Under the pieces are notes generated by a model that did not search any database, was not told the DNA's origin, and saw nothing but the letters and a program-made list of their open reading frames with translations. A stretch of 25,960 bases of DNA, from positions 1-25,960 of the forward strand of contig JACRGO010000227.1 in assembly GCA_016212295.1 (NCBI GenBank), written 5' to 3'. The position numbers and the translations under genes were made by a program. The DNA comes from Nitrospinota bacterium (lineage in GTDB: Bacteria > Nitrospinota > Nitrospinia > JACRGO01). Below are positions 3,420 through 22,845 of this stretch, piece by piece. How positions within the stretch are numbered: position 1 is the stretch's first letter; each line of letters begins with the position of its first letter.

Positions 3420-3620
3420 CGTTGAAAAATAAATTCGAAATACGAATAACGAAATCCGAAACAATATCAAAATTCAAAGGTTAAAATTTCAAAACCCGGC
3501 CCCGTGGTTTGGAATTTTGGAATTGGGTTATTCGAATTTGTTTCGCATTTCGATATTCGGATTTTGGTTGCGGCGAAGCCGCGCCATGTAATCGGTGAAA
3601 TCCGTGGTTATGGATTCTTG
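3420..3620. repeat. AT-rich long inverted repeat with 'ttggttgcggc' tail
   Basis: The gap between putA and phoH (3249-3621) holds no gene. Bases about 3428-3490 (aattcgaaatacgaataacg and onward) are an imperfect inverted repeat of about 3505-3560 (gtttggaattttggaattgg through tattcggatttt). Next come 'ttttggttgcggcgaagccg' (3561 onward) and an 'atcggtgaaatccgtggtta' block. The whole could fold into a long hairpin. Similar AT-rich 'nattcgaaatncgaa' palindromes are widespread in environmental genomes; that comparison is from memory. Confidence 0.6.
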
Positions 3621-5414: not shown

Positions 5415-5717
5415 TGGCAAGCCCATCAACTCAGCATCGTTTGAATACATCGAAATTTATTTTGGTTGCGCCCATGCCGAGCGCTATGCCAGAAAGTATA
5501 TGAAAACCGGCATGGGAAGGCAAGGAACAGAGGGCGGAAAACAAAAGGCGGAAGGCGAAGGATGGAAAGGCAAAGGGTGAAGGGTCTTTGCTAACTGGTT
5601 AGAGCGCAGTGAACCGATGAAACTAAATTTAGATACTTACTCGCTTATTCTGAGAAAATTAAAGGCACTTTTTTAAAAAGCGTTGACTATCCTGCCGGAT
5701 TCGAGAGCGGCTCATGT
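5415..5717. other. Gene-free stretch with repeat motif and purine-rich tract
   Basis: I see no protein gene here. A 'ttttggttgcgcccatgccg' copy of the recurring intergenic motif lies near 5459-5478. A purine-rich G/A tract runs from about 5514 to 5588. A short segment near 5590-5612 resembles a tRNA D-arm but has no tRNA around it. Confidence 0.4.
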
Positions 5718-7765: not shown

Positions 7766-7848
7766 GTTAAGAAATCCGCGTTGTCCGCGCAAGTTTTTTA
7801 AGCCGGCCGCATAGCGCGGCGCGGCCGCAACCAAAATAAATTTCTCTT
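7766..7848. repeat. Intergenic composite repeat, reverse copy of the 'ttggttgcggc' motif
   Basis: Contains 'gaaatccgcgttgtccgcgc' (about 7769-7788), then 'gttttttaa', then a GC-rich palindromic block ending 'gcggccgcaaccaaaataaa'. That last part is the reverse complement of the motif seen near 3561 and 5459. It lies in the divergent gap between glpD and the DUF167 gene. Confidence 0.5.
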
Positions 7849-7890: not shown

Positions 7891-8271
7891 TTGAGACTGG
7901 AATTATTTTTGTCCACAAAAGATGTGAAGCAAGCGGGAAAAAATTTGGGTAATTCTCTCTCCTTTGTTGAAGAATCGCCCGGCGGACTGAAAATCAGCGT
8001 CCGGGTCCAGCCAAGGGCGTCGAGAAACGAGATAGGCGATGTGCGGGAAGGCGCCCTGCGCGTCAAACTCACTGCCCCGCCGGTTGACGGCTCCGCGAAC
8101 AAGCAATTGATAGCCTTCCTTTCCAAAAAATGGGACGTCCCAAAATCCCGCATGGAAATCCTGTCCGGTGAAGCAAGCCGCCAAAAACGCATCCTGCTTC
8201 GCGGCGTACCGCTCTCCCACTTGAAAAAGCATTTGGCGCCAGCGCCTAAATTAAAAGTTTTAATATACTAA
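7891..8271 (+). CDS. DUF167 / YggU-family small protein
   Basis: A small cytoplasmic protein of the UPF0235 (DUF167, YggU) family, whose biochemical role is not established. The family core spans about residues 30-105: GGLKISVRVQPRASRNEI, ALRVKLTAPPVDGSANKQLI and SGEASRQKRILLRGV. The 126-residue frame begins at a TTG (7891) with no good RBS. A GTG at 7924 and a TTG at 7945 are alternatives that would trim the atypical N-terminus to near the usual length of about 100. The stop at 8269-8271 abuts a dispersed repeat. In many genomes this family sits next to yggT or proC; neither is here. Confidence 0.85.
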   Translation: MRLELFLSTKDVKQAGKNLGNSLSFVEESPGGLKISVRVQPRASRNEIGDVREGALRVKLTAPPVDGSANKQLIAFLSKKWDVPKSRMEILSGEASRQKRILLRGVPLSHLKKHLAPAPKLKVLIY

Positions 8272-8402
8272 GCTCCAAACCCAAATGGCCAAATAACAAA
8301 TAAATCCCAATAACCAAAATTACAAGGAGCAAACAAAGAAATGGAATTGTTTTGGACATTCAGTTAATTGTAATTTGCTATTTGTCATTTGGGATTTTGT
8401 TT
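8271..8402. repeat. Dispersed AT-rich palindromic repeat, copy 1
   Basis: Starts agctccaaacccaaatggcc and closely matches 22715-22815: both share 'caaataacaaataaatc', 'caataaccaaaatt' and 'ggaattgtt.tggacat'. The left arm (ccaaatggccaaataacaaa) is an imperfect inverted repeat of the right arm (atttgctatttgtcatttgg). It supplies the last codons and stop of the neighbouring minus-strand glycosyltransferase. Confidence 0.75.
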
Positions 8403-9956: not shown

Positions 9957-11633
9957 GTGGTCAAATCGCCTAACATTTATCCGGTGGTTTTTCTCCTGGT
10001 TTACTGGATTCCTTATATTTTAAAGGCCTCTCATTCCATTAACGGGCAAGGCGCTTCAGGCCAGGAGGCCAAGCCCGCAGCGGTCCTGATTATGCGCGTC
10101 GACACCGATGATGTTTTTAAGTCCATGCTCCATACCGGGACCGGCCTGGGCCAAACAGGCGAGGTCGTGCTTGTCAACCCGGAGGCCGAAATCCTTGTTC
10201 CGCTCAAATATCCCTTGCAGGACGGGACAAGGCCCGCTCCCCTGGAATACCGGATTCAGGCAAAACCCGCGGCGCTTGCGTCCCAGGGCAAGGAAGGAAT
10301 CATTGCCGCTGATGATTATCGAGGCGTCCCGGTCCTGGCCGCCTTTCGCTCCATTCAAATCTCCCCTGAGACATCATGGGGCATGGTGGTCAAGCAGGAC
10401 CGCTCCGAGGTCCTGGCCAATCTGAATAAGAGTATTTCATATTTTTTCCTTATCTTCGCCGCGGCTATTACAGCTCTGGTGGTTTTGACTTATTGGATCG
10501 CCACCGGGCTTTCCCGCCCCATCCACTTGTTGAGCCGGGCCGTCCGTCTGGTGGAATCCGGCGACTTAAGCGCCAGGGCGCCGGCAACCGGTCCCTATGA
10601 AGCGGCGGTTCTGGCCCTAGCCTTCAATTCCATGGCCCAGCGGATTCAGAATTGGCATGGAGAGTTGGAGCGCCGGATACAGGAGCGGACCCATGAACTG
10701 AGCATGGCCAATGAGGAATTGGAAAGGCAGAAGAAATTCCTGGAAGCGATACTGGATTGCGTGGAGGACGGCATAGTGGCATGCGACAACAACGCGGTCC
10801 TGACCCTCTTCAACCGGGCCACCCGTGAGTTTCACGGCCTGCCCCAGGAACCTCTTCCGGCGGAGAAGTGGGCGGACCATTACGACCTTTATCTCGCGGA
10901 CGAGAAGACCCCCATGAAAAGGGAAGACGTGCCCTTATTCCGGACCTTGAAGGGGGAGGCGGTGGACAACGTGGAAATGGTCATCGCCCCAAAGGAAGGG
11001 GCTCAGCGGACGCTTCTGGCCACTGGACGCGCCTTGATTGACGGCAATGGAGAGGGCCTGGGGGCGGTTGTCTCCATGCATGATATCACCGCGCGGAAAC
11101 AAGCGGAGGAAAAATTACGGGTTTACCGGGAAAATCTCGAAAAAATGGTGGAGGAGCGGACGCTTGAATTAAAAACGGCGAATGCAAAACTCCTGGAGGC
11201 CCTTGCGGAAAAGGAACTCCTCCTGCGCGAGATACACCATCGCGTGAAAAACAACATGCAAATCATCTCAAGCCTGCTGAACATGCAATCGCGCGCCATT
11301 TCCGACGGGAGATTGAAGGGAATTTTCGAGGACTGCCGGAACAGGATAAAGAGCATGGCAATGGTGCACGAGAAGCTGTACGCGCACGGCGACCTCGCCC
11401 GGATTGATTTCAATGAATACATAAGAAGCATTTCAAGCGGTTTATTCAGGTCCTACGCCGGCGCCCATGGCCGTGTCGCGTTCAGGACGGAATTGGAGGA
11501 TGGCGTTTTCCTGGGGATCGAAGCCGCCATCCCTTGCGGCCTCATACTTAATGAACTCATTACTAACGCCTTGAAGTACGCCTTTCCGGAAGGCAGGGCC
11601 GGGCGATGGACGGCACAACCCATTCCCCCTTAA
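9957..11633 (+). pseudogene. Sensor histidine kinase (Cache-HAMP-PAS-HisKA_2) truncated at both ends
   Basis: The 558-residue frame covers the C-terminal half of a periplasmic Cache-type sensor (about 40-150, ending ADDYRGVPVLAAFRSI), a TM helix (about 160-185), HAMP (185-240), PAS (255-365), a coiled coil and a HisKA_2 dimerisation domain with LLREIHHRVKNNMQIISSLL (probable phospho-His at about 428). The HATPase stops just after the N-box (ILNELITNALKYAFPEG): the frame runs into a CCCCCTT repeat and the nucleotide-binding G boxes are missing. The N-terminus lacks a recognisable first TM helix and the first Cache half. The GTG start lies 16 bases from the divergent glycosyltransferase start, leaving no room for its own promoter. 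It cannot autophosphorylate as encoded and is probably a remnant. Confidence 0.75.
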
Positions 11634-11657
11634 CAAAGGGGGATTAAGGGGGATGTA
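11619..11657. repeat. CCCCCTT/AAGGGGG palindromic repeat, copy 1
   Basis: Contains 'tcccccttaacaaaggggga' followed by 'ttaagggggat'. The same unit occurs twice more at 15952-16069. Here it forms the end of the truncated sensor kinase frame, so it or its insertion point marks the break. Confidence 0.7.
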
Positions 11658-11714
11658 AAGATGCATTTAACGGCGACTATCGGGGTTATATAATATTTCG
11701 CTGAATAGTTACAA

Positions 11715-13141: not shown

Positions 13142-15436
13142 TCAGGTCGTGGTGTTCTTGGGGTTTTTGGAATTGACTATGGGAATGTTAAGGTCCTGGC
13201 CGGGTTTAAGCTTCGTGATATCAGTTTCCGGGTTATAGTCCTTCAGCAGCCAGTATGGGATTTCATAAACCGCGTTGCAGATCTCCCAAAGGCTTTGCCC
13301 TGGCTTCACTTTAATGATATCCACCCTGGTGACGTCAAAATTGGAATAAAAATCCTCCCTGAAACTATCGTGGAATTCCCTGCGCCTTTCCACGAACTCC
13401 TCCGGGGTCACCTTTTTAAAAACCAATTTTATCCTGTCGCCTACCTTTATGGACTTTTTGCGCAGACTGTTGTTCTTCCTTATGTCCGCAATGGTAAGCT
13501 CCGACCATTCTGAATAATGGCCCAGGGTTTCGTTGTTTTCCACAGTGACCATAACCCCCAGGGGGTTTCCCTGTTTGGCGCTTTTTAAAACCTCAACTCC
13601 GGATAGGGAGGAGACCTTCACCGCGTCCGGCTTTGCGCCTGATTCCTGTGCCGCAGGAGCCGGCGTCTCGTTTTTCGCGAGGGTCTCCGTATTGACCGCG
13701 CTATCCGCTGGTTTTGCCTTCTCCGCCGATGCCGCTGGAGCTTCCATTTTCTCAGGCCCTTCCGGCTTACCGGATACTTCCTTCTTTTCCGGTTTATCCG
13801 GTCCCAACGCTTTTTCCTGTTTATCTGGTCTTTGCGCCTTTTCCGGCTCAGGACCTTTTAAGAGCAAAGTCTGTCCGGGCCGCAACAGACTTGTTTTTTT
13901 CAACCTGTTCCACGCCAGGAGGTTTTCTACTTTTATTCCATGCCTTCTGGCAAGACTATTAATTGTGTCTTTCTCCTTGACCGTGTAGACGCCCGCCGCC
14001 GGTTCCGCGGCGGCCGCTGCTAACAGCGCGTCCGGCTTAGGATCAGCCACGGCGTCGGAAGATTTCTGGACCTCCTGGTCCTTTAAGCCGGGGTCCTGCG
14101 GGAGATGAAGAACCTGCCCGGGAGAAAGCCTGCTCCCGGAATGCATATGATTGAGCTGCGCGAGCGTTGAAGCGGAGGTCCCAAAGCGCTGCGCGATTCG
14201 GCCCATTGTGTCGCCGCGTTTCACCTCATACCACTTAGAGCGCTTTTGTTCCGAGAACCTGACGCCTTCCTTGGCCTCAGCCAATGCCGGCGCGAGTTCC
14301 TTTCCCTTGTTCCTGGGCAATTTCAATACGGTCCCCTTTGGGACCCTTTTTTCGCCGCGCACGACCGGAAGGCGAAGGCCGGGGTTGAATTCCGCCAACT
14401 CCGCCGGGGTCAGGCCCGCATTGGAGGCCAACTGCCTGAAATCGTAATAATGGTCCAGGGTGAGGGTGTCGTAAACAAATGGCGGATCAAACTTCAAATT
14501 GGGAGCATATTTTTCCTTGTTTCTTGACACATGCAGGGCCGCTAGGAATTCACAATAAAAATTCCTTGAAGCGAACCCGAAAGCCTTGCTCTGGTATTTA
14601 TCTATGATTTTAACGATATCGTCCCCGAACTGCTGCTTGGCCCGCATCATTCCATTCAGGCCGTGGTTATATGCGGTGATGGCAAGAGGCCAGCTTCCGG
14701 TTTCCTGGTAATTTTTTCTTAACAGCCTGGCGGCGGCGTCGGTGGCCATGAGGGGGTCCCGCCGTTCATCCACTTCGTAATTGATGTTCATGAAGATCTT
14801 GCCGGTGGAATGAGTGAATTGCCATATCCCCACCGCCCCCAGCTTGGAATAAGCGCCGATCTGAAAGGAAGACTCCACGTGGGGCAGGGCGGTCAGCTCC
14901 AGGGGGAGGTTGTATTTGTTGAAGATCGCCTCCATTTGGTCCATGTATCTTCCCGACCGGACCATTCCCTCGCGGAAACGGTCCGCCTGCCCCAATTGTC
15001 CGCGCACCCTGTCGCTTGCCCTTGAAAAATCCCCCTTCGCCAAATTCCTGACCCTTGTCTCTTCCTGCGAAAGGCCTCCATCGCCGTGCGATCCTGCCAA
15101 TCTTCTGAGTATGTTTCTGTACTTGTCCTTGGCCTTCCTAACGGACATTTCACGGGTCCTCGGAGGCAGTTCATTTAAATTCACTACCTCATAAATGACG
15201 TCAAGGTTTTCGTCATCATGAATGACAACCTGGCTGGTTGTATATTCGGAATAAATCTTTTTCCAGAAATCCACCTTGGTTTGCAGCTCCGGCGGGACCC
15301 TGAAATGGCTGGATATCTGCTTATTTTCCCCCTGGCCGCCCAATGACGCGTGGGCCTTGAAATCTCCAAGAGGAGAAAGCAATGATCCAGCCAAAAGAAG
15401 TAAAATCCTTATTCGCCCCTTGTTTGGAAGTTTCAT
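13142..15436 (-). CDS. mltD: LysM-containing membrane-bound lytic transglycosylase (MltD-like)
   Basis: A periplasmic enzyme cleaving the MurNAc-GlcNAc bond of peptidoglycan to leave 1,6-anhydro ends. The 764-residue protein has a Sec signal peptide (about 1-30, hydrophobic core ILLLLAGSLL, AHA cleavage site; no lipobox) and an alpha-helical N-region. The SLT domain shows LPHVESSFQIGAYSKLGAVG (catalytic Glu188), GIWQF and ITAYNHGLNG. Four LysM motifs bind glycan: about 401-445 (YEVKRGDT), 482-525 (YTVKEKDT), 629-672 (VTVENNET) and 705-755 (IKVKPGQSLWEI). A Lys/Pro/Glu-rich linker (about 528-600) separates LysM2 from LysM3. The third LysM is divergent. The ATG has AAAGGGGTG upstream. It is a monocistronic unit with a possible promoter at 15513-15541. 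Confidence 0.93.
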   Translation of the reverse strand: MKLPNKGRIRILLLLAGSLLSPLGDFKAHASLGGQGENKQISSHFRVPPELQTKVDFWKKIYSEYTTSQVVIHDDENLDVIYEVVNLNELPPRTREMSVRKAKDKYRNILRRLAGSHGDGGLSQEETRVRNLAKGDFSRASDRVRGQLGQADRFREGMVRSGRYMDQMEAIFNKYNLPLELTALPHVESSFQIGAYSKLGAVGIWQFTHSTGKIFMNINYEVDERRDPLMATDAAARLLRKNYQETGSWPLAITAYNHGLNGMMRAKQQFGDDIVKIIDKYQSKAFGFASRNFYCEFLAALHVSRNKEKYAPNLKFDPPFVYDTLTLDHYYDFRQLASNAGLTPAELAEFNPGLRLPVVRGEKRVPKGTVLKLPRNKGKELAPALAEAKEGVRFSEQKRSKWYEVKRGDTMGRIAQRFGTSASTLAQLNHMHSGSRLSPGQVLHLPQDPGLKDQEVQKSSDAVADPKPDALLAAAAAEPAAGVYTVKEKDTINSLARRHGIKVENLLAWNRLKKTSLLRPGQTLLLKGPEPEKAQRPDKQEKALGPDKPEKKEVSGKPEGPEKMEAPAASAEKAKPADSAVNTETLAKNETPAPAAQESGAKPDAVKVSSLSGVEVLKSAKQGNPLGVMVTVENNETLGHYSEWSELTIADIRKNNSLRKKSIKVGDRIKLVFKKVTPEEFVERRREFHDSFREDFYSNFDVTRVDIIKVKPGQSLWEICNAVYEIPYWLLKDYNPETDITKLKPGQDLNIPIVNSKNPKNTTT

Positions 15437-15512
15437 GTCACCCCTTTAAAATAAATAGCAATAGTTCACGAACCATCAACCATTGACTCCTGATCCCTGA
15501 CACCCGTGAGCT

Positions 15513-15541
15513 ATTATAATAAGTAAATGCCTTACTGTCTT
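15513..15541 (-). promoter_or_regulatory. Possible sigma-70-type promoter of mltD
   Basis: On the minus strand a perfect TATAAT (15513-15518) lies 17 bases downstream of AAGACA (15536-15541), a 4/6 match to the -35 consensus. It would give a leader of about 70 bases before the mltD ATG at 15436. Confidence 0.4.
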
Positions 15542-15608
15542 ATCAAATTACCCTGTAAAAGTCAAACCTGTAAATAAAATGACGGTAAAAAATTAATAGA
15601 GAAAGCAC

Positions 15609-15636
15609 TTGCATTCCCTGTGCCGTATGCTATAAT
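15609..15636 (+). promoter_or_regulatory. Strong extended -10 promoter for the micro-protein gene
   Basis: TTGCAT (15609-15614), a 16-base spacer and a perfect TATAAT (15631-15636) preceded by TGC (extended -10). It lies about 60 bases before the start codon of the small ORF at 15698 and on the same strand. It is the best sigma-70-like promoter in the window. Confidence 0.7.
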
Positions 15637-15697
15637 GCTTTTGGGAAAATTGGGAAAGCAAAAAACAATAAAAATCCGAAGGGGGGTGCAAATAATC

Positions 15698-15796
15698 ATG
15701 AGTGAATATACAGGGGTTGATATCTTGCTCTATCTTGTCGTGCTGTTCGGGGGAGTGTTTCTTATTGCTTCAGCGTCTTCCTCAGCCAAAAAATAA
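15698..15796 (+). CDS. 32-residue single-pass membrane micro-protein
   Basis: A short ORF with every expected signal: promoter at 15609-15636, a strong RBS AAGGGGGGTG (15679-15688) nine bases before the ATG, and a rho-independent terminator 28 bases after the TAA. The peptide begins MSEYTGVDILLYLVVLFGGV, continues FLIASASSS and ends AKK: a short polar N-terminus, one hydrophobic helix of about 17 residues (9-25) and a basic C-terminal tail, suggesting inner-membrane insertion. I do not recognise the family. Possibilities include an accessory subunit of a respiratory complex (like CydX or CcoQ), a membrane-stress peptide or a type I toxin. No antisense RNA promoter was identified. Flanking repeats isolate it from mltD and dut. 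Confidence 0.65.
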   Translation: MSEYTGVDILLYLVVLFGGVFLIASASSSAKK

Positions 15797-15823
15797 TTTT
15801 TTTGAATTATATAAAATTTCACG

Positions 15824-15868
15824 AGAACGGCAATCGCCATGAATTCATGGCGTGCCGTTCTTTTTTTT
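15824..15868 (+). terminator. Rho-independent terminator of the micro-protein unit
   Basis: AGAACGGCA (15824-15832) pairs with TGCCGTTCT (15853-15861). Inside it CGCCATGAATTCATGGCG (15835-15852) is self-complementary, and a two-base bulge lies on the left side. A run of T follows (15861-15868). This is the clearest intrinsic terminator in the window. Confidence 0.9.
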
Positions 15869-15951
15869 GCGTTGGCTTCACCTCGGCCACGCTTTTGTAA
15901 CTCACGGGGTTGCCATGAAAAATAATGGAAAGCCTCATTAGTTGATTTTTG

Positions 15952-16069
15952 CATCCCCCTTAATCCCCCTTGCTAAGGGGGAACTTAAACAGAACCTCTT
16001 TTGGGAGCGCCACCTTTTTTATGGGCGCGACAGGATTCCCCCTTTAAAGGGGGACCAAGGGGGATTTGA
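15952..16069. repeat. Pair of CCCCCTT/AAGGGGG repeats forming a MITE-like unit
   Basis: The left copy 'tcccccttgctaagggggaa' (after 'catcccccttaa') and the right copy 'ttccccctttaaaggggg' (followed by 'accaagggggat') are inverted relative to each other. They flank about 42 bases containing 'gggagcgcc...gggcgcgac'. The whole, about 118 bases, has palindromic ends like a small non-autonomous element, with no coding capacity. A single copy lies at 11619-11657. Together with 15869-16144 the region holds no gene; the rest shows nothing recognisable. Confidence 0.65.
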
Positions 16070-16144
16070 CTCCCTCGGCAATTGAGCTTGGCGTCATTTT
16101 ACATGGCGTCCCGTGAATAGTTGTCCTTTTTTTCCTTCCACGAC

Positions 16145-16564
16145 ATGGTCCTTAAAGTAATTAAACTTTCGCCGGACGCCCGCATGCCTTCAAAGGCATA
16201 CCCTGGCGATCTCGGCTTTGATCTTTATGCATCCGTGGATTGCGAGATTCCTCCCTCGGAGCAGGCCGCCGTTGGAACCGGCATAACGGTGGAAATGCCT
16301 GAGGGATGGGGAGGGATACTGAAGGACCGCTCCTCAATGGCCCTGAAGCGGATTTATATTTCAGCGGGGGTCATCGACCAGGGCTACAGGGGGGAAATCA
16401 AGGCGCTCCTTAGAAACGAATCCCAAGTCACATATAAAATCCGCCGCGGGGACAAGATCGCCCAGATGGTCCCGGTTCAGGTGACTGATTGGACAGTCAT
16501 GGAGACCTCTGGTTTAAAAGACACGGACAGAGACGCCAATGGCTTCGGGTCCTCGGGAAAATAA
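16145..16564 (+). CDS. dut: dUTP pyrophosphatase (dUTPase)
   Basis: Hydrolyses dUTP to dUMP and pyrophosphate, keeping uracil out of DNA and supplying dTMP synthesis; normally a homotrimer. The five family motifs are present: GDLGFDLYA (I), LKDRSSMA (II), AGVIDQGYRGEI (III, with the catalytic Asp), RRGDKIAQMV (IV) and DANGFGSSGK (V, the glycine-rich arm). Motif II reads KDRSS rather than the common GRSS or PRSS, a mild variant. I chose the ATG at 16145 (139 residues). A TTG at 16121 would add eight residues unlike the family, and neither has a good RBS. The gene ends three bases before the next start codon, so it is probably co-transcribed with the activator gene. Confidence 0.92.
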   Translation: MVLKVIKLSPDARMPSKAYPGDLGFDLYASVDCEIPPSEQAAVGTGITVEMPEGWGGILKDRSSMALKRIYISAGVIDQGYRGEIKALLRNESQVTYKIRRGDKIAQMVPVQVTDWTVMETSGLKDTDRDANGFGSSGK

Positions 16565-22712: not shown

Positions 22713-22845
22713 AAAGCTCCAAATCACAATTGTCAAATAACAAATAAATCTCAATAACCAAAATTCCAAGTAACAAACAAGGAAAAGGAATTGTTCTGGA
22801 CATCTGGAATTTTGCTTTCCCTTTGGTTGCAGCCATGCCACGATA
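22713..22845. repeat. Dispersed AT-rich repeat copy 2 with 'tttggttgcagcc' tail
   Basis: agctccaaatcacaattgtc and the following 80 bases align with 8271-8375 in the same orientation with few changes. The right arm is shorter, ending at 'ggaattttgctttccc', and is followed by 'tttggttgcagccatgccac', a copy of the motif near 3561 and 5459. The second half of the inverted repeat is lost here. Confidence 0.75.

Follow-up and report, generated by a model that had tools for sequence, protein, structure and literature searches.

Positions 15609–15868 of contig JACRGO010000227.1, from a Nitrospinota bacterium, appear to hold a monocistronic unit encoding a single-pass peptide of the inner membrane, 32 residues long, that would act in trans on some larger membrane partner, a reading to which we assign a probability of roughly one half. 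The window analyzed is the entire contig, 25,960 bases, and the parent genome comprises 3.74 Mb in 237 contigs at 90.5% completeness. An initial annotation of this DNA had proposed a self-contained transcription unit within 260 bases, and its four elements, a promoter, a ribosome-binding site (RBS), a short open reading frame (ORF) with a membrane helix, and a terminator, are present at exactly the coordinates it gave (Table 1). These elements are well supported by sequence statistics; transcription, translation and membrane orientation we infer from them, and action on a larger membrane partner is a guess by analogy. As we picture it, RNA polymerase would start near 15643 from the extended −10 element, and the resulting ∼220-nucleotide (nt) RNA would end at the intrinsic terminator. 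Ribosomes would load at a near-consensus Shine–Dalgarno (SD) sequence, and the peptide would insert as one helix (about residues 8–26), with its acidic N-terminus probably outside and its Lys-Lys tail cytoplasmic. The helix may pack against a larger membrane protein whose gene lies elsewhere, modulating its stability or activity in the manner of AcrZ, KdpF and CydX. Taken as a whole, the signals look suited to producing a membrane micro-protein steadily and at a high level.

The extended −10 promoter proposed in the initial annotation is indeed found as TATGCTATAAT, and such an element occurs in 0.2% of shuffles of 15437–15698. Genome-wide, 22 perfect extended −10 sites are seen versus 4 for a reversed control pattern, and many of these 22 precede an ORF by some tens of bases. 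This enrichment, together with the siting upstream of ORFs, suggests that the extended −10 motif probably functions as one type of promoter in this genome. Because the −35 hexamer is poor (3/6), we attribute promoter strength to the extended −10. The claim that these are the strongest expression signals in the window holds by ranking for the RBS and the terminator. Transcription would be expected to begin ∼7 nt past the −10, giving an RNA of ∼220–225 nt, in agreement with the length of ∼220 nt predicted earlier; as was also proposed, this RNA may be abundant. Separately, at other loci of the genome (L098, L099 and L109), a TTTGGTTGC(G)GCC...GCGC sequence lies 5′ of several perfect extended −10 sites, as if it belonged to a repeat family carrying or bordering promoters.

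The RBS, also part of the initial annotation, is a near-consensus SD, AAGGGGGGTG. Its duplex with the anti-SD has a calculated energy of −14.1 kcal/mol, which places it in the top two among the 779 ATG codons of the window (2/779 equal or better, itself counted), and it ranks top by a second score too. As for the ORF that follows, MSEYTGVDILLYLVVLFGGVFLIASASSSAKK, one of at least 25 codons is found in 51% of shuffles of the transcribed stretch. When a membrane helix is also required, the fraction falls to 0.35%, and with a helix ORF plus a moderate RBS to 0.05%; none of 20,000 shuffles is as good as the observed arrangement, RBS included. These chance tests for the signals of the unit were devised after the fact, and the margins are wide. 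The codon score of the ORF frame is +3.6 bits against intergenic background versus −13 and −15 for the other two plus frames, and gene-like codon content among the plus frames is therefore confined to the ORF itself. A 58-residue frame with a GTG start at 15620 was rejected, because that codon precedes the point at which transcription should begin.

The encoded peptide has a Kyte–Doolittle hydrophobicity of 2.43 over 19 residues, and a single-sequence AlphaFold prediction returns one helix spanning residues 2–30 (mean pLDDT 87.6). Acidic residues occupy positions 3 and 8, lysines positions 31 and 32, and the C-terminal end is serine-rich (ASASSSAKK). The positive-inside rule suggests an N-out, C-in orientation. 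The ORF and the transmembrane helix thus stand as first described, but the basic tail was overstated, as it consists of two lysines in a peptide with a net charge of about −0.5. The hydrophobic moment is low across the helix, as would be expected of a packing helix that is buried and not of an amphipathic one that forms pores. At 32 residues with one helix, the peptide falls within the loose class of small single-pass membrane proteins (<60 residues), for which size limits of 20–60 codons and one helix of 15–30 residues have been used.(PMC10903887) In that source, conservation in other species serves as a screening criterion and not as a definition; here, no relative is found among 76 other genomes of the phylum or, within the sensitivity of the searches, elsewhere.

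The terminator, described earlier as near-perfect, is the strongest in the window, at −25.7 to −27.2 kcal/mol (z = −7.2) compared with −18.7 kcal/mol for the next best, and it beats all 2000 shuffles. A simple terminator scan missed the hairpin because its stem carries a 2-nt bulge. As the T-run is on the plus strand only and the position is between divergent genes, it is a plus-strand RNA begun in the gap that would give this terminator its use. Such an RNA could instead be a small regulatory RNA (sRNA) with the ORF incidental or secondary, as in a dual-function RNA. The unit resembles sRNAs with intrinsic terminators in its length of ∼220 nt, its intergenic location and its strong promoter and T8 terminator, and an ORF for which no relative is found and whose codon usage is neutral would fit as well. 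However, the leader and ORF RNA without the terminator has no excess structure relative to shuffles (z = +0.3), which makes a messenger RNA (mRNA) likelier than an sRNA. The RNA of the unit has no match in Rfam, even at E = 1, and matches to its DNA in the phylum are limited to short AT-rich stretches (E ≥ 0.0015). Moreover, unlike these sRNAs, the unit carries a strong RBS and an ORF encoding a transmembrane helix, a pair of a quality very unlikely to arise by chance. We therefore regard the sRNA interpretation as unlikely.

Table 1. Features of the candidate unit and its surroundings in the window.
Feature	Position	Strand	Remarks
−35-like TTGCAT	15609–15614	+	3/6 to consensus, 16-nt spacer; read directly, below consensus-scan threshold
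Perfect extended −10, TATGCTATAAT	15626–15636	+	sole TGnTATAAT / TRTGnTATAAT site in window
A-rich leader, 55 nt	15643–15697	+	predicted start, from −10 position
SD, AAGGGGGGTG, 10 nt	15679–15688	+	9 nt 5′ of ATG
32-codon ORF, MSEYTGVDILLYLVVLFGGVFLIASASSSAKK, putative single-pass membrane peptide	15698–15796	+	ATG 15698, stop TAA 15794–15796
Intrinsic terminator	15824–15868	+	hairpin 15824–15861, 2-nt bulge in stem, AATT loop, T8 15861–15868
Antisense promoter-like site TTGCCG-16-TATAAT, over unit end	15806–15833	−	10/12 matches; equal site in ∼4% of shuffles
Divergent promoter-like site AAGACA-17-TATAAT, for MltD-like gene	15513–15541	−	10/12 matches
LysM/SLT lytic transglycosylase, MltD-like	13142–15436	−	gene assignment
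dUTPase ORF	16121–16564	+	alternative ATG start possible at 16145

Several observations weigh against a membrane-peptide gene. The small-ORF homology search that had been suggested as a check was run with tblastn against related genomes, and the 32-mer has no relative in its own genome or in the 76 others (all 77 belong to one class). Neither plasmids nor phages (tblastn), nor IMG/VR (searched by 7–8 residue seeds), nor GTDB contigs (searched by exact 8-residue seeds, which would miss distant relatives) contain one, and there is no match in Pfam, NCBIfam, PHROGs, PDB sequences or Foldseek. A match of 79% over 14 residues in one genome (G004) was set aside as chance; it is in another reading frame, over an apparent export-lipoprotein signal peptide. 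At present sampling the peptide is an orphan, and selection on its protein sequence therefore cannot be demonstrated. Codon usage is weakly gene-like (+0.3 bits) when judged against the ORF's own base composition, and the GC content at third codon positions is 0.44 versus 0.68 in neighboring genes. In the fold predicted for the full-length RNA, the SD and the bases around the start codon pair in part, with a mean unpaired probability of 0.41 for the SD. Finally, the neighbors (MltD-like, dUTPase and a sigma-54 activator) point to no membrane partner.

The proposal that the peptide acts on a larger membrane protein draws on CydX, KdpF and AcrZ, which it resembles in length class (∼29–49 residues), in having one hydrophobic helix, and in its short polar ends. 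AcrZ acts on a partner encoded elsewhere, as proposed here. CydX and KdpF are normally encoded in the operon of their complex; unlike them, our peptide stands alone beside the MltD-like and dUTPase genes rather than with large subunits. Pfam families of the CydX/KdpF kind and other named small subunits give no match at E values up to 10. The comparison refers to an account of AcrZ–AcrB(PMC7267776) and to a description of CydX.(PMC4325964) In a relative (genome G013, contig 121, locus L020), positions 1677–1948 contain two consecutive single-helix small ORFs of 36 and 46 residues with strong RBSs, whose products might be minor components of a respiratory complex.

A short hydrophobic peptide of this kind could also be a type I toxin that depolarizes the membrane of its own cell and is restrained by an antisense RNA. 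Membrane-associated type I toxins are hydrophobic, shorter than 60 residues and form one helix, as this peptide does; they are restrained by an antisense RNA, which is complementary to the toxin mRNA and comes from an overlapping or divergent gene, and, where needed, by a structure that sequesters the RBS.(PMC8309996) Like TisB, Fst, Ldr, TimP and others, the peptide has predicted-cytoplasmic C-terminal lysines and would be made from a short mRNA with a terminator. TimP calls for caution, as an adjacent sRNA keeps its abundant mRNA from being translated.(PMC7667032) An antisense promoter-like site with 10/12 matches overlies the 3′ end of the unit, and the partial pairing of the RBS in the full-length fold, noted above, keeps this possibility in view. 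However, an antisense site of that quality has a ∼4% chance probability, no antisense terminator appears in the promoter/terminator scan, and leader complementarity in the divergent region, the location of a TimR-type antitoxin, is no better than chance. The RBS is near consensus and shows no clear sequestration; leader and ORF fold no better than shuffles. The peptide also differs from such toxins in its acidic N-terminus and its low hydrophobic moment, with no amphipathic helix, and Pfam toxin families are without match (PADLOC was not searched). On balance, a toxin is improbable, and we do not favor it. The initial annotation had offered an accessory subunit, a stress peptide or a toxin: a translated single-helix peptide is supported, homology does not separate the three functions, and a toxin would be without its usual partner signals.

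The unit sits in the 684-nt gap separating the divergent MltD-like and dUTPase genes, and each neighbor suggests a further alternative to an independent membrane-peptide gene. With respect to the MltD-like gene, the peptide might be an envelope-stress or regulatory micro-protein tied to the lytic transglycosylase through a common control region. The two promoters face away from each other, their −35 elements ∼67 nt apart, and a direct repeat, CCTGTAAA, lies between them; the 8-nt repeat is within chance. In a same-genus relative, a different ORF is found upstream of the MltD-like gene and no such peptide is present, on a contig that stops 337 nt upstream. This relative, the only other genome of the genus compared, is a distant one, with MltD-like proteins that are 51% identical, and the dUTPase of the window has no match in it. 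We consider such a link quite doubtful. With respect to the dUTPase gene, the short ORF followed by a terminator, with the next gene on the same strand and a serine-rich C-terminus, recalls an attenuator in which translation of a leader peptide controls read-through. However, no antiterminator pairing is better than that of shuffled arms, and ∼21 kcal/mol would be needed to keep the terminator open. Leader peptides are usually less hydrophobic than this one, the dUTPase gene does not serve the synthesis of an amino acid, and >250 nt, including a dispersed repeat, intervene, such that attenuation is very unlikely.

That dispersed repeat, at 15945–16070, recurs on the minus strand at 11626–11662. 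It has CCCCCTTAATCCCCCTT...AAGGGGG arms and occupies 56 genomic places, some copies being 39 bp and others ∼125 bp long; the repeat looks like a miniature inverted-repeat transposable element or a repetitive extragenic palindromic-type element. The RBS stretch 15679–15697 (AAGGGGGGTGCAAATAATC) resembles the inverted outer end of this repeat (AAGGGGGATGCAAA-AATC), and it is conceivable that the RBS and pre-start region were derived from, or are controlled by, the repeat, with opposite-strand repeat RNAs silencing the peptide in trans through 14 bp. The 14-nt complementarity has p ∼0.007 in one of the four regions tested, and a local alignment has p 0.0005 against mononucleotide shuffles; G-runs inflate both values. 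Most genomic copies read ACATCCCCC and the local copy GCATCCCCC. The resemblance is probably a coincidence, and we give a repeat origin or repeat control very little credence. If true, the unit would be a young membrane-peptide gene tied to a repeat family that occupies some 50 genomic places.

Other repeats were noted in the window. Two copies of a 90-nt repeat, 87% identical, are located at 8270–8359 and, on the minus strand, at 22714–22803. Their pseudo-peptide (MSKTIPFLCLLLVILVIGIYLL...) matches ∼100 genomic places, most of which contain an in-frame stop, and no match in relatives is convincing; a protein family was rejected on these grounds in favor of a dispersed DNA repeat. Intergenic copies of a TTTTGGTTGCGGC...CGCGCC motif are present at 3561–3588, 5452–5482 and 7810–7844; this is the sequence mentioned above, as TTTGGTTGC(G)GCC...GCGC, in connection with extended −10 sites elsewhere. 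The contig ends (31–140 and 25851–25960) form a 110-nt perfect inverted repeat, probably a repeat at which the assembly broke.

The lack of comparative evidence limits the interest of the finding. Nevertheless, genes this short escape annotation pipelines, and here regulatory signals alone flag a probable micro-protein gene that is invisible to homology. The phylum is poorly sampled; if the unit is expressed, its product would be a membrane peptide specific to its lineage and possibly of recent origin, and a test case for the origin and recruitment of orphan transmembrane peptides.
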